From an uncultured Caldilineaceae bacterium (GTDB lineage: Bacteria; Chloroflexota; Anaerolineae; Caldilineales; Caldilineaceae): a DNA stretch of 64,000 nt. Under the pieces are notes generated by a model. The model ran no database searches, was not told where the DNA came from, and saw only the letters and a list, made by a program, of their open reading frames with translations. Positions 1 through 54,904 of this stretch are shown here, in pieces. The stretch is from assembly GCA_958295915.1 (NCBI GenBank), contig OY282381.1, forward strand, positions 2,006,722 to 2,070,721, in the 5' to 3' direction. Each line of letters begins with the position of its first letter. The first letter of the stretch is position 1. Made by a program: the position numbers and the translations under genes.

Positions 1-1545
1 GAACTACGGGTGCAGCAGGGAAATATCACCGAAGCGGATGCCGATCTGATCGTCGTCAATCTGTTCGCCGGTGTGACGACGCCCGGCGGCGCGACGGGCG
101 CCGTTGACCAGGCGCTGGGTGGCGGCATTAGCCAGCTCATTGCCCAAGGGGATTTCAGCGGCAAAGCGGAGACGACAGCGCTGCTCTATGCGTCTCTTTC
201 TAGCAGAGGCGCATTGAACACGTCCCAGAGCCGGCTGGCCGCGCCCCGGGTGCTGCTCGTCGGCCTGGGCAGACCTGATCGGTTCGGAATTGCGCAGATC
301 CGGCGGGCAGCAGCGGTGGCCGCCCAAGCCGCGGCCAAACTGGACGGTGTCAAGACTATGGCGACGATCATCCACGGCGCCGGCATTGCTGGCCATGACA
401 CCGCCGTTGCCGCGCAGGAGGTGGCGCTGGGAACTCTGTTAGCCAGCTATCGGCCCAAACAGTACCGGCGCAATAACCCCGACGACCAGTTGACAAGCTG
501 CACAGTTGTGGAGTTCAGCGCCGAAAAACTGGCCGACGCCCAACGCGGCCTGTCCAGGGGCGAGGCCATCGGCCGGGCTGTCTGCAGGGCCCGCGATCTG
601 GTGAACGAGCCGCCGAATCTCCTGACGCCCCTGGAGATGGCCGCCCGTGCCCAGTCCATGGCCGCGGATGTGGGCCTGAAAAGCGCAGTTCTGAACGAGG
701 CGGCCATGCAGGAAGTGGGGATGGGCTTTCTGCTGGCGGTGAGCAGAGGCAGCGCCAATGAGGCCCAGCTTGTCATTCTGGAACACGCGCCCGCCGGGCA
801 CGCCGAGGAAGCGCCGCTGGTTTTCGTCGGCAAAGGGATTACATTCGATACCGGCGGCATCAGCCTGAAACGTCCGGCAGATATGTGGGCGATGAAGGAC
901 GATATGGGCGGCGCGGCCGCGGTGATCGGCGCGCTGGAGGCCATCGGCCAGCTTGATCTCCCCCAACGGGTGATCGGCGTGGCGCCCTGTGTGGAAAATA
1001 TGCCCGACGGTACATCCTACCGGCCCGGCGATATCGTCACCGGCATGACAGGCAAAACCGCGGAGATCATCAGCACGGATGCGGAGGGACGGCTGGTTCT
1101 CGCTGACGCGCTGGCGTACGTGGCCCGTTTCAATCCCATCGCGGTTGTCGATCTGGCAACTCTTACCGGCGCGATCGGCACGGCGTTGGGGCTGCATGTG
1201 CGCGCGGGCCTGTTCAGCAACGATACCGCCCTGCAGGAAAAGCTGATGACGGCCGCAGATCACAGCGGCGAGCGGCTATGGCCGTTCCCGATGGATGAGG
1301 AATATGAGAAGCCGATTCAAAGCGACATGGCAGAAGTGAAGAACAGCAGCGGGCGCGCCGGCGGCCTCAGCAGCAGCGCCAAGTTTATCGAACACTTCAC
1401 CGAAGGCTACCCTTGGGCCCACCTGGACATCGCCAATATGGTGCTGGCCGACAGCCGAATCAACCCGGAGACACCGAAAGGCGCCACCGGATACGGCGTG
1501 CGGCTGCTAGTGGAGTTGGCAGAGCGCTATGCAGTACATTCGTAA
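1..1545 (+). CDS. pepA: Leucyl aminopeptidase (M17), 5' end cut by window edge
   Basis: Cytosolic leucyl aminopeptidase of family M17, a two-metal hexameric enzyme releasing N-terminal residues from peptides. The C-terminal catalytic domain is complete: VGKGITFDTGG (metal-binding Lys near residue 275 counted from base 10), the MKDDMGG stretch, and the signature STDAEGRLVLADAL. A GTG at base 10 could be read as a start, but the frame is open to base 1 (E-L-R before it) and M17 proteins normally have a few residues before QGNI, so the true start probably lies just outside the window. Residues about 61-70 (ASLSSRGALN) are encoded by a copy of dispersed repeat A, in frame, between the N-terminal domain strands and the RVLLVGLG motif. 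Function is well supported; the start is not. Confidence 0.93.
   Translation, partial: ELRVQQGNITEADADLIVVNLFAGVTTPGGATGAVDQALGGGISQLIAQGDFSGKAETTALLYASLSSRGALNTSQSRLAAPRVLLVGLGRPDRFGIAQIRRAAAVAAQAAAKLDGVKTMATIIHGAGIAGHDTAVAAQEVALGTLLASYRPKQYRRNNPDDQLTSCTVVEFSAEKLADAQRGLSRGEAIGRAVCRARDLVNEPPNLLTPLEMAARAQSMAADVGLKSAVLNEAAMQEVGMGFLLAVSRGSANEAQLVILEHAPAGHAEEAPLVFVGKGITFDTGGISLKRPADMWAMKDDMGGAAAVIGALEAIGQLDLPQRVIGVAPCVENMPDGTSYRPGDIVTGMTGKTAEIISTDAEGRLVLADALAYVARFNPIAVVDLATLTGAIGTALGLHVRAGLFSNDTALQEKLMTAADHSGERLWPFPMDEEYEKPIQSDMAEVKNSSGRAGGLSSSAKFIEHFTEGYPWAHLDIANMVLADSRINPETPKGATGYGVRLLVELAERYAVHS
190..219 (+). repeat. Repeat A copy 1, in frame inside pepA
   Basis: A 30-bp palindromic element (GCGTCTCT ... 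AGAGGCGC plus tail ATTGAAC) that begins on a codon boundary and adds exactly ten codons, read A-S-L-S-S-R-G-A-L-N, to the aminopeptidase. Confidence 0.85.
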
Positions 1546-10877: not shown

Positions 10878-10986
10878 GCGCCTCTTTCGAGGCTGTGATT
10901 CACGGGATTCATATGATGGGGATGACCGTAGTTATCATCTCAATCATAATAATCATATAAATCATAGTCGCAGAGGCGCATCGAAC
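10878..10986 (+). repeat. Composite repeat: C nested in A
   Basis: Left half of A (GCGCCTCTTTCGA), about 75 bp of family C (from TTCACGGGATTCATATGATG to ATCATAGTC), then the right half of A (GCAGAGGCGCATCGAAC). It is nearly identical to the in-frame copy at 18970-19077 but lies in the spacer between permease and binding-protein genes. Confidence 0.85.
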
Positions 10987-17020: not shown

Positions 17021-17050
17021 GCGCCTCTGCTCGAAAGAGGCGCATTGAAC
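17021..17050 (+). repeat. Repeat A copy 12, leader of the sulfatase gene
   Basis: GCGCCTCT-GCTCGAA-AGAGGCGC-ATTGAAC: the loop is reversed relative to the tail, as if the hairpin had inverted. It lies 27 bp upstream of the sulfatase start. Confidence 0.85.
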
Positions 17051-17076: not shown

Positions 17077-18582
17077 ATGCGCCCCAAGAATATTCTATTT
17101 ATCCTGACCGACCAATGGCCGGCATGGGCCTTCAGTTTTCGCGGGGCCGATATCCCCACCCCTAATATCGACCGCTTAGCGGCTGAAGGGACGGTTTTCA
17201 GCAACGCCTTTACCACCTGCCCGCTCTGTACACCGGCTCGAGGAACCCTGCTTACGGGGCGCTGGCCCCACCGCACAGGCGTAACCGACAACTACGCGGT
17301 CGGATATTCGCAGCAGCCTTCGATGCCCCTGGCAGAGCGTACCTGGATCGACGAGGCCGTTCGTCTCGGCTATCATGTCGGCTACTTTGGCAAATGGCAT
17401 CTCGGGCCGATCAACCCGGAAGCGCGTGATGCCCATCGCTTTGACCCCCAAGTAGACGTGCGGCGCCAGCCCTATGATCCACAGACGAGCGCCTTCTCCT
17501 ACCAGGTCGCTAAGGAAGGCTACGATCGACAGACGCGCGAAGATCTCATCCGAGGCCGCGCCCCCTTTTGGGGTGAGGTCGCGCAGTCAAAAGAGCAATG
17601 CCCGCCCACGCCTCTTTCGAGCAGAGACGCATTCAACGCTTTTCCGGTGATGAACAACGGCGTCCAATTTCTCGAAACATGGGCCGCGGGAGATCGAAGT
17701 AAACCCTTTTTTCTGACGGTCTCCTCGGCAGAACCACATTTCCCGCACCATCTACCCAAAACATACGCCAGAATTGCGCAACAACGCAAGCCCAGGGCCG
17801 AACTCCCCGCCAATCTGCGGGATAACTGCGCCGGCAGGCCCTGGTTCCATGCTGTGCCTTGGTGGCCCTGCATGGATACGGCTGTGCTGGATGAAGACGA
17901 ATGGCGTACGGTCATCGCCTACTCTCAGGCGCATCTTATGCTTGTCGATGAAGCTATCGGACACGTTCTCAAGGCACTGGATCGACTGGGGCTGCGGGCG
18001 TCCACCACCGTAGTCTTCACCGCCGACCACGGCGATATGGAAGGCGCGCACAACCGCTTCGACAAAGGCCCCTATTTCTATGAAGAAGTTTGGCGCATTC
18101 CGCTCATCATACACACGCCAGATACGGCGCCGGCAACCCAAGATGCCTTTGTCTCGCTTATTGATGTGGGCGAAACGCTCTTCAGTCTCATCAACGCCGC
18201 AACAACCGCTGAACGACCGCGTGCCGGGCGAGATCTGCTGCCGCTGGTGGGCGCCGCCACGCGTCCCGCCCATTGGCCGCAGACCGCATATGGCGTCTAC
18301 AATCTCTACAACGGCATGAGTTTCGCTGTACGCGCCATCCGCAACGAGCGCTACAAGTACGTCTGGAATCCGCAGGCCATAGACGAACTCTACGATCTAC
18401 AGACCGACCCACACGAAATGGAGAATTTGGTAGGACACTCGGGGCAGGCCGCTGCTGCCGAATCCGAACTCCATCATCAGCTTATGGCCTGGCTGGCGGA
18501 CATTGGCGACGACCTCCCGAGCCGGGTCGAACTGCTGCCCCCGGCTGGTACGATTATGGCCACAGGTGAATTGGGGCCGTAA
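17077..18582 (+). CDS. Sulfatase (Cys-type, alkaline phosphatase superfamily)
   Basis: A 501-residue type I sulfatase. The formylglycine motif C-T-P-A-R has its Cys at residue 51 (TTCPLCTPARGTLLTGRWPH). Metal ligands are NILFILTDQ at the start and FTADHGDM in the second half; GKWHLG is also conserved. There is no signal peptide, so a cytoplasmic role on imported sulfated oligosaccharides is likely; activation needs a formylglycine-generating enzyme not seen here. The ATG at 17077 has AAGGAG upstream. Residues 178-187 (TPLSSRDAFN) are encoded by repeat A, in frame. It shares an operon with the sugar importer and GH2. Confidence 0.93.
   Translation: MRPKNILFILTDQWPAWAFSFRGADIPTPNIDRLAAEGTVFSNAFTTCPLCTPARGTLLTGRWPHRTGVTDNYAVGYSQQPSMPLAERTWIDEAVRLGYHVGYFGKWHLGPINPEARDAHRFDPQVDVRRQPYDPQTSAFSYQVAKEGYDRQTREDLIRGRAPFWGEVAQSKEQCPPTPLSSRDAFNAFPVMNNGVQFLETWAAGDRSKPFFLTVSSAEPHFPHHLPKTYARIAQQRKPRAELPANLRDNCAGRPWFHAVPWWPCMDTAVLDEDEWRTVIAYSQAHLMLVDEAIGHVLKALDRLGLRASTTVVFTADHGDMEGAHNRFDKGPYFYEEVWRIPLIIHTPDTAPATQDAFVSLIDVGETLFSLINAATTAERPRAGRDLLPLVGAATRPAHWPQTAYGVYNLYNGMSFAVRAIRNERYKYVWNPQAIDELYDLQTDPHEMENLVGHSGQAAAAESELHHQLMAWLADIGDDLPSRVELLPPAGTIMATGELGP
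17608..17637 (+). repeat. Repeat A copy 7, in frame inside the sulfatase
   Basis: Thirty bases starting exactly on a codon boundary, read T-P-L-S-S-R-D-A-F-N, in the same phase as the pepA copy. Confidence 0.85.
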
Positions 18583-18630: not shown

Positions 18631-21615
18631 ATGAACCGCACATTTTCACTCGATGGAAGCTGGCAGGTCATTTTCGATCACGACAACAAAGGCCGTACCT
18701 TACACTGGCAGCATCGGGAAAATTTCCACAGCTACCACAATATTGAACAAATTACTGTTCCTGCCTGCCTCGAAGAGTTCAAACAGGACTACGAGGGCGT
18801 GGCCTGGTATGGCAAAACCTTCAGCCTGCCTGCGGATTGGAACGGCAAGACCATCCGCCTTCACTTCGAGGCGGTCAACTACCGGGCAGAAATCTGGATC
18901 AATGGCCAAGCCGCCGGCGCGCACGAAGGGGGCTATACTGGGTTCGACCTGGAGATCGATGATCTTCTAGCGCCTCTTTCGGACCGTGGTTCACGGGATT
19001 CATATGATGGGGATGACCGTAGTTATCATCTCAATCACAATAATCATATAAATCATAGTCGCAGAGGCGCATTGAACGCGTACACGGACACAGAGAACTT
19101 CATCGCCGTGCGGGTCATTACCCCACTGATCACCCGCGATGTCGTGATCGATGGCCTGGGTCGGGATGATATGCCCCATTGGCGCGGCGCAATCACAGGC
19201 GGGATCTGGCAGTCCGTTTCACTCATTGCCACGGACGCTGTCTATATTGAAAATGTATTTGTAACAACCGACATTGAAGTCGGCGATGTCTCGGTGGAGA
19301 TGGAGATCCGCAACACCAGTCTCAAAAATCAAAAAGCCGAACTGAGGTGGCAGATCGCGCCCTATGCAGACGATACGCCCGCAACCTCGGACTCTGAACA
19401 ACGCACCCTGAGACCGGGAGCCAACACCGTGGTGACGGAACTGAATGTCGCCGATTTCAAACTCTGGCAGCTCGATGACCCCTACCTCTATTTGCTGACA
19501 TCCAGCGTCGCGCTGCAGGATGCGGTTTCAGACCAGGTGGAAACGCGTTTCGGTTTTCGCGAGTTCACCGCAAAGGGCAAAAGCTTCTATCTCAACGACG
19601 AAAAGATCATCCTGAAAACAACCTTCAATGAAGCCTTCTACCCCCATTCACTGGCCTATCCCAGAGATCTGGATCTGCTCAAGAAAGAGTTCAAGCTGAT
19701 CAAAGAAGGCAACATCAACATGATTCGACCCTGGCGCAAGCCCCAACCGCCGGTCGTCTACGATTTGGCGGACGAGATGGGCGTGCTGTTCGTTGGCGCC
19801 CTGCCGGTTGAGTGTATGTCGAATTGGCCCCAGATCACCCCCTATACCCAACAACGGATCGAGAATGAAGTGACCGAGATGGTCCTGCGCGATCGCAACC
19901 ATCCATCGATCGTCATCTGGGAGATGTTCAACGAAATCATGCGGCCTGGTCTCAAACGACTGCGCCATAAGACTTCGCTGAAAGCCCGCGCCCTGGATTC
20001 TACACGGCTCATCATCGATGAAGCCGGCGGCTTTGCCGGCGTGTGCAGCCTCTATCTGCCGGGTTCATACGAGCCTACGCTGATCAACGATGTCCACGAT
20101 TACCCAGGCACGCCCCTCGATCAGGAAAGCTACGATAGGCTGCTGATGCTAGGCAAGACAGAAGCTGAACTCAAGGCCATGGGGCGAGAAGCGTTGGGCC
20201 AGCATCGGCGTAGCTATATCGCGCCCGGCCTGTTGACCAATATCTCTGAATTGGGCTATGGCAGCATCCCCGACTTGGAGGCCAATCTGGCCCAATATCG
20301 GCGCGAGGGCAATCCCATCACCCCAGATTATCGGATTCATGCGCGTCTGCATGATTCCTACCAGGCGATCTACAAGCAGGCAGGGCTGGACCAAATTTTT
20401 CCAACCTTCCACGACTTTATGGTCGCCTGCCAGGAAATTCACTACACGGGCAACAAACTGATGGCCGAAGCCTGTCGCATCAACCCCGATATTGCCGGCA
20501 TCGGCATCCATGCTCTCAACGACGGCGACTGGATTGTGGGGGCGGGTCTCATCGACAACTTCCGCAACCCCAAGCGAGCCTATTACGCTATCCAGGAAGT
20601 CTTCGCCGACCGCTATATCGCCATCCGCCCAAGCCATCAGAATCTCTATGCAGAGCAGGATGTGCAGATCGCGCTCACATCGGTCAACGACAAAGAACCT
20701 CTGTCCGGCCCCCTCTCGATTCGGGCGACGGCCAGCGACGGGCAATGTCTGCTCGATATCAACGAAGACATCACTTTGCCGACGGGCATCGTCGAGCTGG
20801 GCGAGTACGCCATCGCCACGGTCGGTCTCGCGGGACGCTGCCTGGTTGAGGTCGCCTTCAGCAGCGGTGCATCCAATTTGCTGGAAAACCGCGTCAGTTT
20901 CTATGTTCTGGAGCGGGAGAAATCGGCTCTGCCCCGGCAAAATGTCTCGATGATCGATCTCGACGGCGCACTCGGCGAGTACCTGTTAGCCCGTGACTTG
21001 GATTTTGCGCCATTTTCAGCAGGGACAGCGCGCCATCAACCGACCCTGATAAATTTGAATGGCTGGGATGGAGAACCGCAATCGATTTTTACTGAGCTGG
21101 AGAACTGGGTCAAAGAAGGCGGGACGGCTGTCTTCCTCAACGCGCCGCCCGAGGTTGTATTGAAAAACAATGGCAAGAGCCATTTATGGCGATTTCTGGA
21201 GAAGGACATCCTCTTGCCGTTCGCCGTCTCTTATTTCACTGGCAAGGGCTTGTGGACGCCCTGTAGCCATGTCGTCAGGAATCATCCAGTCTACGATGGC
21301 CTTCCATCGGCTTGTCTGATGGGGCAGGAATACCGCAATGTCGTCCCGCGGTGGTCGATGGTGACGCCGGAAACAGACTGGATCAGCGGCAATATCAGCT
21401 ATGGCTGGTATGCTGGCCTGAAACATAAACAGAATTACACCGGTGTGACCGCCGCCCTGCACGGCGCTGATGTAACGCAGGTTCCCTATGGAGAAGGTAG
21501 GTACATCCTGTGCACACACCGAATCGTTGAAAATCTCGGCAAAGATCCCTTGGCGGAACGCCTGTTCAGCAATCTGCTACGATGGGTTGTCGCAGAGCGA
21601 CATGAGGTTGTTTGA
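18631..21615 (+). CDS. GH2 family glycosidase (beta-galactosidase/beta-glucuronidase type)
   Basis: A 994-residue GH2 enzyme. The N-terminal jelly-roll sugar-binding domain (FSLDGSWQV ... AEIWINGQAAGAHEGGYTGFDLEIDDLL) is followed by an immunoglobulin-like domain and a TIM barrel, with acid/base Glu435 in IVIWEMFNEIM. The last third is a long extra region with beta domains (SFYVLEREKSALPRQN on). No signal peptide is seen. Residues 114-149 are an in-frame composite of repeats A and C (A-P-L-S-D-R ... NHNNHINHSRRGALN) placed in the loop before TENFIAVRV of the jelly roll, where homologues have a short turn. Glycan specificity is unresolved; the neighbouring sulfatase suggests a sulfated substrate. 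Confidence 0.9.
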   Translation: MNRTFSLDGSWQVIFDHDNKGRTLHWQHRENFHSYHNIEQITVPACLEEFKQDYEGVAWYGKTFSLPADWNGKTIRLHFEAVNYRAEIWINGQAAGAHEGGYTGFDLEIDDLLAPLSDRGSRDSYDGDDRSYHLNHNNHINHSRRGALNAYTDTENFIAVRVITPLITRDVVIDGLGRDDMPHWRGAITGGIWQSVSLIATDAVYIENVFVTTDIEVGDVSVEMEIRNTSLKNQKAELRWQIAPYADDTPATSDSEQRTLRPGANTVVTELNVADFKLWQLDDPYLYLLTSSVALQDAVSDQVETRFGFREFTAKGKSFYLNDEKIILKTTFNEAFYPHSLAYPRDLDLLKKEFKLIKEGNINMIRPWRKPQPPVVYDLADEMGVLFVGALPVECMSNWPQITPYTQQRIENEVTEMVLRDRNHPSIVIWEMFNEIMRPGLKRLRHKTSLKARALDSTRLIIDEAGGFAGVCSLYLPGSYEPTLINDVHDYPGTPLDQESYDRLLMLGKTEAELKAMGREALGQHRRSYIAPGLLTNISELGYGSIPDLEANLAQYRREGNPITPDYRIHARLHDSYQAIYKQAGLDQIFPTFHDFMVACQEIHYTGNKLMAEACRINPDIAGIGIHALNDGDWIVGAGLIDNFRNPKRAYYAIQEVFADRYIAIRPSHQNLYAEQDVQIALTSVNDKEPLSGPLSIRATASDGQCLLDINEDITLPTGIVELGEYAIATVGLAGRCLVEVAFSSGASNLLENRVSFYVLEREKSALPRQNVSMIDLDGALGEYLLARDLDFAPFSAGTARHQPTLINLNGWDGEPQSIFTELENWVKEGGTAVFLNAPPEVVLKNNGKSHLWRFLEKDILLPFAVSYFTGKGLWTPCSHVVRNHPVYDGLPSACLMGQEYRNVVPRWSMVTPETDWISGNISYGWYAGLKHKQNYTGVTAALHGADVTQVPYGEGRYILCTHRIVENLGKDPLAERLFSNLLRWVVAERHEVV
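18970..19077 (+). repeat. Composite repeat C-in-A, in frame inside the GH2 gene
   Basis: 108 bp starting on a codon boundary: A left half, C core (TATGATGGGGATGACCGTAG ... AATCATATAAATCATAGTC), A right half ending ATTGAAC. It adds exactly 36 codons with no stop and is almost identical to the intergenic copy at 10878-10986. Confidence 0.9.
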
Positions 21616-22815: not shown

Positions 22816-22888
22816 TGAGCCCCCTGGGACTCGAACCCAGAACCCACGGCTTAAAAGGCCGTTGCTCTACCAATTGAGCTAGGGACCC
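22816..22888 (-). tRNA. tRNA-Lys (anticodon TTT)
   Basis: A 73-base cloverleaf: acceptor GGGTCCC/GGGGCTC, D arm GCTC-AATTGGTA-GAGC, anticodon arm ACGGC-CTTTTAA-GCCGT with anticodon TTT, T arm CTGGG-TTCGAGT-CCCAG, discriminator A. CCA is not encoded. It has its own promoter and terminator. Confidence 0.95.
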
Positions 22889-23994: not shown

Positions 23995-24293
23995 CGCGCC
24001 CTACAGTGGCGCGCACAACCCTTATCGCGCCCTACAGTGGCGCGCACAACCCTTATCGCGCCCTACAGTGGCGCGCACAACCCTTATCGCGCCCTACAGT
24101 GGCGCGCATACAACTCTTGCCGCGCCTTACAGTGGCGCGCATACAACTCTTGCCGCGCCCTACAGTGGCGCGCATACAACTCTTGCCGCGCCTTACAGTG
24201 GCGCGCATACAACTCTTGCCGCGCCTTACAGTGGCGCGCATACAACTCTTGCTGCGCCCTACAGTGGCGCGCATACAACCCTTATCGCGCCCT
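23995..24293 (+). repeat. Nine-unit tandem array of repeat B
   Basis: Units 1-3 are 31 bp (core CTACAGTGGCGCGCACAACC), units 4-9 are 33 bp (core TACAGTGGCGCGCATACAAC), followed by a partial tenth. Each unit holds the inverted repeat GCGCC-N6-GGCGC. Change is by unit type and single bases (CTACAG/TTACAG), so the array grew by recent duplication. Thirty-three bases equal 11 codons and all three plus-strand frames stay open across much of it, but nothing supports translation. The 3' end reaches the stop codon of the TrmH-type gene. Confidence 0.93.
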
Positions 24294-25073
24294 CCTCTTT
24301 GACAGCCTACGCTGCCGCGCCGCCTCGAAGAGAATAATAGCGCCGGCCGCGGCGACATTGAGGGATTCGGTCATGGCGGCCATTGGAATCGCTACAGTCG
24401 TGCCTTTTTCCCGGATCTGTGAACTCGACCCATGCGCCTCGTTTCCCAATACCAGAACAGATGGCTTGCCCCAATCCACATCATCATACAGGACTCTACC
24501 CTCTGCGCATGCCACATAAAGCGTCTGCTCGGCGGAGAGAATCTCCCAAACTGCCTGCCACTGCGCCAACACACGAATCGGGAGCCGAAAGTGGGCGCCC
24601 ATCGCCGCCCGTATCACTTTACTGTTGAACGGGTCGACACAGCCTGGCCCAAACAGCGCCTGATCGACGCCAGCTGCGGCTGCTGTGCGCAGGAGAGTCC
24701 CACCGTTGCCTGGATCCTGCACGCCATCCAGGACGAGGGACAGAGCGCCGACAGGAGGCAGGGACAGAGCCGGCATGGCGGCAACCGCCACAATGCTCTG
24801 AGGCGATACCGTCTCGCTAATTTTGTTGAGAATTTCTCCGGCCACCAAATAGACCGGGCACATCCGCTCGATCTGGGCGACGAGATCCGGCTGCGCGTCC
24901 GCGGCGGCTACAGTGATAAAACAGGTGCGAAAGACTGCATCCATTGTTAGCGCATCCTGCACCAAACGCATCCCCTCCAACAGGCACAGACCATGGGCTT
25001 GCCGATGACGCCGCCGGCGCAGCTTGCCCGCCAGTTTGATCTGTGGATTGCTGGAACTGGTGATCTCTTTCAT
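24282..25073 (-). CDS. TrmH/SpoU family RNA 2'-O-methyltransferase
   Basis: A 263-residue SPOUT methyltransferase with the N-terminal substrate-binding domain (SSSNPQIKLAGKLRRRRHRQAHGLCLLEG) and the knotted C-terminal domain. Its three motifs are LVLDGVQDPGNGGTLLRTAAAAG (catalytic Arg), SVLVLGNEAHG and IPMAAMTESLNVAAAGAIILFEAARQR. It probably methylates rRNA or tRNA with S-adenosylmethionine; the target cannot be read from sequence. The last residues (S-K-R-R-A-R) and the TAA stop lie in the end of the repeat B array, so the array has shaped the gene's 3' end. It follows rplT, with a terminator between them. Confidence 0.9.
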   Translation of the reverse strand: MKEITSSSNPQIKLAGKLRRRRHRQAHGLCLLEGMRLVQDALTMDAVFRTCFITVAAADAQPDLVAQIERMCPVYLVAGEILNKISETVSPQSIVAVAAMPALSLPPVGALSLVLDGVQDPGNGGTLLRTAAAAGVDQALFGPGCVDPFNSKVIRAAMGAHFRLPIRVLAQWQAVWEILSAEQTLYVACAEGRVLYDDVDWGKPSVLVLGNEAHGSSSQIREKGTTVAIPMAAMTESLNVAAAGAIILFEAARQRRLSKRRAR

Positions 25074-32950: not shown

Positions 32951-33085
32951 ATATGCTCGCCTCCGTCATTTTGGTGTATAATGACATTCAGCGCATAACC
33001 GTTGTTCATAAGAGACGCCACCGCCATCTGCGCCGCCATTGCAGAACCGTGCGACAAGCCTTTCGATTGGCCATATCAACCTCTT

Positions 33086-33175
33086 TGACCTTTGATTCGC
33101 TTGATTTATGTGATGGGGATGATGAACTGCTGTTATCACGGCAATCATACAAATCATACAAATCTGTGGTCAGCA
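33086..33175 (+). repeat. Repeat C copy 4
   Basis: GACCTTTGATTCGCTTGATT ... TGCTGTTATCACGGCAATCA ... AAATCTGTGGTCAG. The central TGCTGTTATCACGGCA forms a hairpin. It lies directly upstream of the dehydrogenase ribosome site. Confidence 0.85.
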
Positions 33176-33191
33176 CATGATGGAGAGTACC

Positions 33192-37250: not shown

Positions 37251-37368
37251 GCGCCTCTTTGACCTTGGATTCGCTTGATTTATGTGATAGGGATGATGAA
37301 CTGCCGTTATCACGGCAATCATACAAATCACATAAATCAAATCACATAAATCAGTGGTCAGAGACGCC
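37251..37368 (+). repeat. Composite repeat: C nested in A
   Basis: GCGCCTCTTT, then a full C element (GACCTTGGATTCGCTTGATT ... CTGCCGTTATCACGGCAATC) with a duplicated AAATCACATAAATC, then GTGGTCA-GAGACGCC, the closing arm of A. Confidence 0.82.
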
Positions 37369-50766: not shown

Positions 50767-51144
50767 ATGTATACACTGGCAGTACAACGAGATTTTGTAG
50801 CCCAGCATTTCCTCATCGGCGGCGATTGGGGCCCGGAAAATCAGTGGCACTCCCATCACTACCGTCTGGAATTTCAATTGGAAGGCGCGGATCTGGACCA
50901 GCACGGCTATCTGGTGGATATTGTGCACGTGGAAGAGCTGGTAGAAGCATTGGCGCGCCGCTATCGCGATAAGACTCTCAACGAACTGCCAGAATTCGAC
51001 GGCCTGAACCCGAGCATCGAGCATTTCTGCCGCATCGTCGCCAACAGCTTCTCCAGTGGGTTGCACGCGGCCAATATCAGCGCGGTCACTGCCCGCATTT
51101 GGGAGAACGAAATTGCCTGGGCCTCCTACCGGCTGGAGCGCTAA
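50767..51144 (+). CDS. 6-pyruvoyl-tetrahydropterin synthase / QueD homologue with altered active site
   Basis: A 125-residue COG0720 protein. The zinc ligands are kept (His14, and His28/His30 in WHSHH). At the place of the QueD catalytic Cys (four residues before the HxH) there is Glu24, and the Asp-His pair is Asp68-Lys69, so two of the catalytic residues of QueD and mammalian PTPS are changed. Glu in place of Cys is known from PTPS-III, which makes 6-hydroxymethyl-dihydropterin, though the local spacing differs. It lies next to the RibA-RibD fusion, suggesting a side-branch pterin or pyrimidine pathway. Confidence 0.85.
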   Translation: MYTLAVQRDFVAQHFLIGGDWGPENQWHSHHYRLEFQLEGADLDQHGYLVDIVHVEELVEALARRYRDKTLNELPEFDGLNPSIEHFCRIVANSFSSGLHAANISAVTARIWENEIAWASYRLER

Positions 51145-51149
51145 CCGCC

Positions 51150-52433
51150 ATGCCCGTGCGCATCGGCCTGCTCATCTACGGCTCTCTGGATACCCTCTCC
51201 GGCGGCTATCTCTACGACCGCAAACTGGTCGAGTATCTGCGCCAGGCCGGAGATTCTGTCGAAATTATATCGATCCCCTGGCGCAGCTATCCAGCGCGCC
51301 TGGCCGACAATCTTTCGTCGCGCCTATACCAGCGACTCCGATCTCTGGACGTGGACATTCTGTTGCAGGATGAGTTGAATCATCCATCGCTGGTGCTCGT
51401 CAATCAGCAGTTGCGGCGTAGGCCAAAGGACGCCCCGCCCCGGCCCTATTCATTGATCAGTATCGTTCATCATCTACGCAGTAGCGAACAGCATCCGCGC
51501 TGGCTGCTACCTGTATACCGCGCTGTCGAGCGCTCCTACCTGCGCACCCTCGACGGTTTCGTTTTCAACAGCCACACGACCCGGCAGAGCGTGGCGACAC
51601 TACTGGCCAATCCCGCCAGTGCGAGTAGTGAGAAGCGAAAAAAGAAAAGTGAGAGGCGCTCTCTCTCCTCTCCCCTCTTCCCTCTCTCCTCACCTTTCGG
51701 GCGCTCATACCTCACTGTTTCAGGAAGCGAAGCGCTGTCCGGCATCGTCGCCTACCCGGCAGCGGATCACCTGCCCGTACCAGACGCCGATGCTGCGCAA
51801 CAGTTAATCAGAGCCAGACAGCGCCGCCCTGGCCCGCTACGCATCCTGTCCGTCGGCAATCTCATCCCACGCAAAGGGCTGCACCATCTGATAGCCGCTC
51901 TTTCACGTCTGCCGCCGACCGATTGGCAACTGGACATCGTCGGCGCCCATACGGTCGATCGCGGCTATACTACAGCGCTGCGGAGGCAGATAACTGCAGC
52001 CGGATTGGAAGCGAACATCCGCTTGCGGGGGCGCGTATCCGACAGAGAATTGGCGCAACGATACAGCCACGCGCACCTGCTGGCCGCACTGTCTTACGAG
52101 GGGTTCGGCATCGTCTATCTGGAGGCAATGGCTTTCGGACTGCCGGCGCTGGCGAGTGTTCACGGAGCCGCCAGCGAAATCATCAGCCATGGCATCAATG
52201 GTTTTCTGGTCGAGCCTGCGGACGCCCACACCATCGCCGCGCATCTGTCTGCCCTGGCCAGGGACAGACAGCGGTTGGCGACAGTAGGCCAAAACGCCCG
52301 CCAGCGTTTTGCTCTCCATCCACGTTGGGCTGACTCAACTGCTGCGATTCGCAACTATTTTGTCGCTGTTTCGAACCGTGATTCTCCTGATTCAGATGAT
52401 GGACAGAATAAAATCATGGTCGATCCTGGATAA
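51150..52433 (+). CDS. GT4 family glycosyltransferase
   Basis: A 427-residue GT-B glycosyltransferase: N-terminal acceptor half (RIGLLIYGSLDTLSGGYLYDRKLVEYLRQAG) and donor half with LRILSVGNLIPRKGLHHLIAAL and the EX7E motif EGFGIVYLEAMAFGLPALA. Residues about 158-195 are an unusual basic/Ser-rich stretch (SSEKRKKKSERRSLSSP ...) inserted between the two halves, and the last 18 residues (RDSPDSDDGQNKIMVDPG) come from a repeat C copy. It begins five bases after the PTPS-like gene, so it may glycosylate the product of that cluster. Confidence 0.88.
   Translation: MPVRIGLLIYGSLDTLSGGYLYDRKLVEYLRQAGDSVEIISIPWRSYPARLADNLSSRLYQRLRSLDVDILLQDELNHPSLVLVNQQLRRRPKDAPPRPYSLISIVHHLRSSEQHPRWLLPVYRAVERSYLRTLDGFVFNSHTTRQSVATLLANPASASSEKRKKKSERRSLSSPLFPLSSPFGRSYLTVSGSEALSGIVAYPAADHLPVPDADAAQQLIRARQRRPGPLRILSVGNLIPRKGLHHLIAALSRLPPTDWQLDIVGAHTVDRGYTTALRRQITAAGLEANIRLRGRVSDRELAQRYSHAHLLAALSYEGFGIVYLEAMAFGLPALASVHGAASEIISHGINGFLVEPADAHTIAAHLSALARDRQRLATVGQNARQRFALHPRWADSTAAIRNYFVAVSNRDSPDSDDGQNKIMVDPG
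51622..51716. repeat. Low-complexity insert with half elements of A and D inside the GT4 gene
   Basis: Read on the minus strand: GTGAGGTATGAGCGCCCGAA (start of D), a purine-rich tract, then GCGCCTCTCACTTTTC (A-like arm). It encodes the basic/Ser-rich insert and keeps the frame. Confidence 0.55.
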
Positions 52434-53603: not shown

Positions 53604-54707
53604 ATGAAGATCAAACGCATTTCCGCCTATCAGGTCGATCTGCCTCTGCGCGAGGGACGCTACGCCTGGTCCGGCGGCAAGTCGGTTTCCGTCTTCGACA
53701 GCACAATTGTCCAGGTTGAAACCAACACTGGCCTTGTCGGCCACGGCGAAGTCTGTCCTCTTGGTCCTTTTTACCTGCCGGCCTACGCCGCGGGGGTGCG
53801 CGCCGGCCTGGCCGAGTTGGCGCCTCATCTCATTGGGCTAGACCCGTTGCAGCTGGCTATTTTGAACGATCAGATGGATCGAGCGCTGAAGGGCCACGCC
53901 TACGTGAAATCCGGCATCGACATCGCCTGCTGGGATATTCTGGGCCAGGTGGCCGAGCAGCCGGTCTGTGTACTGTTGGGCGGGCGCTATGGTGATGATT
54001 TTGTCTTATATCGAGCCATCTCCCAGCGCTCGCCGGCCGACATGGCGGCCTCCGTGGCCAGATATCGCGCCGAGGGGTATCGGCGCTTCCAACTGAAGGT
54101 GGGCGGTGACCCGCACACGGACATCGAACGGATTCGGGCCGTGGCGGATGTGCTGGCCCCCGGGGACATACTAGTGGCTGATGCCAATACCGGCTGGTTG
54201 GCGCACGAAGCCGCGCGCGTGGTGCGCGGGGTGGATGATGTGGATGTCTATATCGAGCAGCCCTGCCTCAGCTACGAGTCGTGCCTTTCGATTCGCCAGC
54301 GCACGACACATCCCTTTGTGCTGGATGAAACCATCGACAGTATTGATGCGCTGTTGGGCGCATATGGGGATAGTGCAATGGATGTTGTGAACATAAAAAT
54401 CAGCAAGTTCGGGGGCCTGACCAGAGCGAAGCAGGCTCGGGATCTGTGTGTTTCTCTGGGCATCGCCATGACCATCGAGGACAGTTGGGGCGGTGACATC
54501 ACCACGGCGGCCATCGCGCATCTGGCCCACAGCACGCCAGCGGAGTTTCTGTTTACAGCCACGGATTTCAACAGTTATGTGACCGTCAGCACGGCAGAAG
54601 GCGCGCCCCAGCGTCACAATGGACGCATGGCTGCTTCCGCGGCGGCGGGGCTGGGCATTGCGCCCCGCTGGGAAGCGCTGGGCGAGCCGGCGCTGGCGAT
54701 CGGATGA
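53604..54707 (+). CDS. Mandelate racemase/muconate lactonizing enzyme family protein
   Basis: A 367-residue enolase-superfamily enzyme with capping domain and barrel. Catalytic Lys in [11 protein letters not shown], metal Asp in LVADANTGW, Glu in VYIEQPC, Asp/Glu in VLDETID and the second Lys in [14 protein letters not shown] are present; [17 protein letters not shown] resembles hydroxyproline dehydratases and proline-betaine epimerases. ATG 53604 has CAGGAGAG upstream. It may form the end of the preceding cluster or be independent; a 156-bp gap separates it. Confidence 0.9.
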
Positions 54708-54712
54708 AATCG

Positions 54713-54798
54713 GACCTTTGATTTGCTTGATCCATGTGATGGGGATGATGAACTGCCGTTATCATGGTAATCATACAAATCACATACATCCGTGGTCG
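54713..54798 (+). repeat. Repeat C copy 7
   Basis: GACCTTTGATTTGCTTGATC ... TGCCGTTATCATGGTAATCA ... ACATACATCCGTGGTCG, immediately after the enolase-superfamily gene. Confidence 0.85.
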
Positions 54799-54904
54799 AT
54801 CAGTAGGCGATGGCAACCCTCTCCCGCTATTGTTGCCACCCATCGGCAACTATCCTAGCGCCTTTACAACGCCGTCATGACCTGCGTTTCCCGTAAAACG
54901 ACCG

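Follow-up and report, generated by a model that had tools for sequence, protein, structure and literature searches.

The GH2 glycosidase gene of an uncultured Caldilineaceae bacterium carries, in frame, one palindromic repeat lodged in the hairpin loop of another, and the two repeats, termed here A and C, are very probably short, non-autonomous, mobile families whose nested pair in this enzyme is read as a tolerated, disordered loop. The window analysed is a stretch of 64,000 nucleotides (2006722-2070721) from a genome of 5.06 Mb in one contig, whose closest named relatives are Caldilineaceae bins; the positions of the features are collected in Table 1. The two families would have spread through this genome with their mobility supplied in trans by another enzyme. 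A (net 33 bp) and C (GAC...GTC ends, net 78 bp) would preserve the reading frame, being multiples of three in net length, and in most copies one frame or more, rich in small or polar residues, appears to stay open, so that copies in the right phase in surface loops could be translated and persist. In the GH2 enzyme, A with C in its loop would fall in a beta-turn of the beta-sandwich at the N-terminus, where it would be translated as a disordered loop of 37 residues, and the gene would still be maintained despite the added loop.

Table 1. Positions of the GH2 gene, the parts of its composite insert and other copies of repeats A and C in the window
Feature	Position	Strand	Basis or remark
GH2 glycosidase gene	18631..21615	+	994 aa, intact, in-frame 111-bp net insert; orthologs known
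Repeat A, 5' arm and loop start, GCGCCTCTTTCG	18970..18981	+	sequence
Repeat C, subfamily C1, 79-nt imperfect palindrome GAC...GTC, within the A loop	18982..19060	+	sequence
Repeat A, loop end, 3' arm and tail, GCAGAGGCGCATTGAAC	19061..19077	+	sequence
Extra codon GCG, included in the 111-bp net difference	19078..19080	+	ortholog alignment
Sister composite, intergenic, 109 nt	10878..10986	+	sister of the GH2 copy in the C tree (support 98/84)
Repeat C, subfamily C2, outside A	33080..33176	+	sequence
Repeat C, subfamily C2, in an A (GCGCCTCTTT/GACC), not in the GH2 gene	37254..37350	+	sequence
Repeat C, subfamily C2, outside A	54706..54802	+	sequence
Repeat A alone, 33-bp (11-codon) net insert in sulfatase gene 17077-18582	17608..17640	+	in frame
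Repeat A read as ASLSSRGALN in M17 aminopeptidase gene 10-1545	190..219	+	in frame

The composite (18970-19077, 108 bp) is a copy of A with a copy of C in its loop, and it has no stop; the C copy begins GACCGTGG and ends ATAGTC (79 nt). An earlier note on this DNA had given these coordinates and this layout correctly, and was equally right about a near-identical intergenic composite, which lies exactly at 10878-10986 (109 nt, 94% identical), and about the stop-free reading of the GH2 copy, whose peptide is the one it quoted. The intergenic copy is 1 nt longer than that in the GH2 gene and therefore stands in another frame with respect to the A arms. The whole GH2 composite, folded as RNA, forms a single long hairpin (-36.6 kcal/mol, z -3.94). 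The gene adjoins the sulfatase gene at 17077-18582, and its 994-residue product contains all of the Pfam domains GH2_N, GH2 and GH2_C. The gain was first put at 36 codons, a figure that has to be raised to 37, since the net difference from the orthologs is 111 bp; the additional GCG codon may be the edge of A or else a target-site change.

The insert is absent from all 22 distinct orthologous GH2 sequences, which come from bins of Caldilineaceae, Latescibacterota and Paenibacillaceae. They read DLL-DAGA-ENF or similar across the site, where the window protein has 37 residues more, and the loop that the earlier note expected to be missing from homologues is indeed missing from all of them. In one relative whose genome is collinear with the window (G015), the net difference at the GH2 site is exactly 111 bp. 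The relatives are just ~75-80% identical at the DNA level, so none of them stands for a recent ancestral state, and part of the difference could stem from replacement or recombination. The earlier note had added that homologues with the same loop in unrelated DNA would count against its reading; what the orthologs of two relatives (L010 = G016 and L011 = G006) carry in this loop is an insert of unrelated DNA that is shorter, at 12 codons, and of other sequence (AESSRSYGEAVAREH), so that it does not count against that reading. This unrelated insert indicates that the site is permissive, and the turn that holds the composite looks like an insertion hotspot.

The net lengths of the two repeats are additive. 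A alone accounts for +33 bp in sulfatase 1 and sulfatase 2 (11 codons) and in HisC, where the site measures 138 nt with A versus 105 nt in the comparison sequence, and C alone accounts for +78 bp in a radical SAM gene, for which nine of nine aligned orthologs have a clean empty site; 33 + 78 gives the 111 bp of the GH2 gene, and both numbers are multiples of three. No target-site duplication is visible where the insertions in GH2, in the sulfatase and in the radical SAM gene are aligned with orthologs. The HisC site of another relative (L183, from G014) has an independent and longer insert where the window genome carries A.

In-frame insertion is thus found in several unrelated conserved genes whose orthologs lack the repeat. 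A or C also lies in frame, with Pfam support, in genes for an M17 aminopeptidase, an OppC permease, an APH-family kinase (three copies), a glutamate-cysteine ligase, an ArsP permease, an FtsX-like permease, PMT_2 transferases, a molybdopterin oxidoreductase and a DUF4037 protein; most of these cases rest on the reading frame and not on ortholog alignment, so net insertion may not hold for every one. At the A site of the M17 aminopeptidase, the ortholog holds another sequence of about the same length, hence no net insert there; an MFS transporter gene has both C and A in frame, at a place where loop length is variable. The three A copies of the APH-family phosphotransferase gene (L082 1324-2700) share one reading frame. 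The frame APL-xx-RGA is used in 11 of 17 intragenic A copies (p 0.008 against one third, in a post hoc count from a list that was partly hand-checked), which is a weak indication that A has a preferred reading frame.

Repeat A is a hairpin, put at 23 or at 30 nt, with a 7-nt tail; in the simple form, the hairpin GCGCCTCT-TTCGAGC-AGAGGCGC precedes a tail that reads ATTGAAC or ATTCAAC. Across 70 copies the tails are ATTGAAC, ATTCAAC or ATTGCAA, the first two reading GTTCAAT and GTTGAAT on the other strand. The 7-nt loop occurs in both orientations with respect to the tail (TTCGAGC or GCTCGAA; compare window positions 17021 and 46161 with 7429 and 28727), as though the two varied independently. 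Perfect-stem copies of A number 181 in this genome, versus 0 for a reversed-pattern control, and perfect A hairpins amount to 0-1 per genome in 60 relatives. C has 44 matches in this genome, and elsewhere gave weak partial matches in just 2 of 150 genomes. Many dispersed palindromic copies of both families are therefore present in a single genome, on counts from genome searches together with 432 kb of fetched stretches. In a sample of the phylum, none of the 399 further genomes matched the composite; C was not found on plasmids, nor the exact A hairpin in viral contigs, and Rfam had no match over the repeat, its sole match being a tRNA at 22816-22888. One relative (G012) has C-like half palindromes arrayed with a period of ~117-135 bp (C7:38199-38917, C24:9019-9457 and C39:63508-64053).

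Other repeats share the window with A and C. A glycosyltransferase-like ORF (51099-52433) has, at 51604-51733, a 105-bp net in-frame insert relative to G015 that contains GCGCTCATACCTCAC, which represents a third repeat family (compare 15884, 15931, 16891 and 48955); G015 carries a short insert of its own at the same spot. A tandem array with a 31-33-bp unit, GCGCATACAACTCTTGCCGCGCCTTACAGTGGC, occupies 23995-24301, and related copies are dispersed at 1630, 9374 and 28847.

The nesting of C in A is far more frequent than random insertion would produce: C lies clearly in an A loop in at least 13 of 52 copies examined, against an expectation of 0.08, and four further copies of the 52 adjoin a damaged A. 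There are two main junction types, TTTCG/GAC...GTC/GCAGAGG and CTCTTT/GACC...GGTC/AGAGG (slashes mark the junctions), and the A tail is on one constant side of C in nearly all nested copies. Judging from these sequences, there were probably several separate entries of C into A loops, most of them with C in the same orientation.

For the origin of the GH2 composite two routes have to be weighed, arrival in one piece or arrival of A and later of C. Movement of the composite as a unit, as proposed earlier, is somewhat less likely than not, given that A alone and C alone both occur and several lineages of C lie in A loops. Nevertheless, a composite that is itself a mobile unit, with A and its C copied whole into the GH2 gene, for example from or with the copy at 10878, is a serious contender that falls not far short of an even chance. 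The copies in the GH2 gene and at 10878 group as sisters (98/84), although their flanks are unrelated, and they have in common GACCGTAG, which is absent from other C1 copies; moreover, three C2 composites have in common an extra AAATCTGTGGTC beside the A arm. However, the markers shared by the GH2 and 10878 copies sit in C and not in A, so that the copying of C between existing A loops would explain them just as the copying of a whole composite would. The nested copies are also scattered over the C tree, on which nesting takes 13 changes versus a mean of 14.5 in shuffles, although this tree is poorly resolved, and each repeat is frequent without the other. It can also be entertained, if only tentatively, that C preferentially integrates into A hairpin loops in one orientation, the A copies serving as landing pads that lengthen proteins stepwise; if so, proteins would grow by steps divisible by three (+33 bp first, +78 bp next) with their function kept.

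By either route, the composite is probably translated and tolerated in the GH2 enzyme. Only one of its six frames is open, and this is the frame of the GH2 gene. The dN/dS of the gene versus five orthologs is 0.14-0.17, compared with 0.135 between two orthologs; this measure, although blind to a recent loss of function, places the gene under purifying selection, at a dN/dS of about 0.15. AlphaFold gave a poor model of the full-length protein (pLDDT 50.6), and the N-terminal 310 residues were folded instead with a more diverse alignment, giving a model with a mean pLDDT of 81.6 and a fold that matches GH2 structures. In this model the insert (residues 119-149) is predicted to be disordered (pLDDT about 32-40) and to form a loop between two strands of the N-terminal beta-sandwich, flanked by the confident strands 105-108 and 151-163. 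The 37 added residues probably make up a floppy surface loop. The earlier suggestion of an insert tolerated in a loop agrees with the intact ORF, the low dN/dS and this structural prediction.

A different explanation would be that the gene has recently become a pseudogene, or that the region is untranslated, and that the open frame is due to luck. One in six frames of a 108-bp palindrome might be open by chance, but 994 codons are undisrupted, dN/dS is as it is among the orthologs, and the same elements lie in frame in many other conserved genes, which makes this explanation improbable.

The earlier note also raised the idea that a loop rich in His and Asn might bind metal. The peptide has the string NHNNHINH, which the AATCAT-rich arm of C encodes, and the same Asn/His string is open in the intergenic sister copy; because the DNA of C accounts for this composition, the idea of a metal-binding loop is unsupported and was rejected. 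That the His/Asn/Asp-rich loop is functional in a broader sense, binding metal or substrate and kept by selection, is very improbable: its composition and the use of the sole open frame of the composite would be in keeping with such a role, but the string is dictated by the palindrome, the loop is predicted to be disordered, its occurrence as a single copy means that conservation gives no handle, and the gene evolves like orthologs without the loop. An assembly artefact or a chance similarity can be set aside almost entirely, for although the analysis worked from a single-contig public assembly and not from its reads, there are hundreds of copies with unrelated flanks and a consistent structure, and the orthologs have precise empty sites.

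Palindromic repeats that code for protein have been described mostly in Rickettsia and Wolbachia. The RPEs of Rickettsia are in-frame palindromic repeats in protein genes, with further examples in Wolbachia (WPE) and M. jannaschii (PMC2229807, PMC10969869), and in the guanylate kinase of Rickettsia the palindromic insert is translated and the enzyme is still active (PMC2229807). A and C resemble these coding palindromes in being short and in lying both between genes and in frame within conserved genes (PMC2229807, PMC10969869). They differ from RPEs in belonging to another phylum, in their net lengths (33 and 78 bp versus about 105-150 bp) and in the nesting of one family in the loop of the other. 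In functional terms, A and C are protein-coding palindromic elements that appear to work like RPEs. In-frame palindromic elements are a known phenomenon, and what sets A and C apart is the nesting and the host group; a search of the literature on palindromic repeats in Caldilineaceae found nothing relevant.

Each family also recalls other systems. The GTAG/CGTC-tagged REPs are hairpins of 20-40 bp with a short conserved end tag and a high copy number, some of them in genes, and are associated with RAYT transposases (PMC3733652). A is similar in its hairpin, its short conserved tag at one end and its many copies, some of them intragenic. However, its tail is ATTGAAC or ATTCAAC and not GTAG or CGTC, and a transposase search covering the Y1 family found no Y1_Tnp/RAYT gene in this genome (control matches in 5 of 14 genomes). 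The tail in 70 copies and the absence of Y1_Tnp rule out a GTAG/CGTC REP with its RAYT, and a Y1 transposase or RAYT was likewise rejected as the mover. Bacterial MITEs (Correia/NEMIS, ERIC, RUP and QMITE) are non-autonomous inverted repeats that sometimes give in-frame fusions (PMC2229807, PMC10969869). C is like them in its terminal inverted repeats (GACC...GGTC or GAC...GTC), whereas no target-site duplication is visible at the aligned coding insertions, the transposase search, which covered the Y1 family, gave no parent IS, and C is strongly enriched in A loops. A and C are also reminiscent, in size and nesting and by description rather than by sequence, of the small dispersed repeats of cyanobacteria, which are very small and inserted in other repeats; we know of no in-frame coding role for these.

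The presence of two nested in-frame families in a Chloroflexota-type bacterium indicates that proteins can gain peptides by this route outside reduced intracellular genomes as well. The sulfatases, HisC, the radical SAM protein and the GH2 enzyme, together with their empty-site orthologs, are natural experiments on loops derived from selfish DNA.
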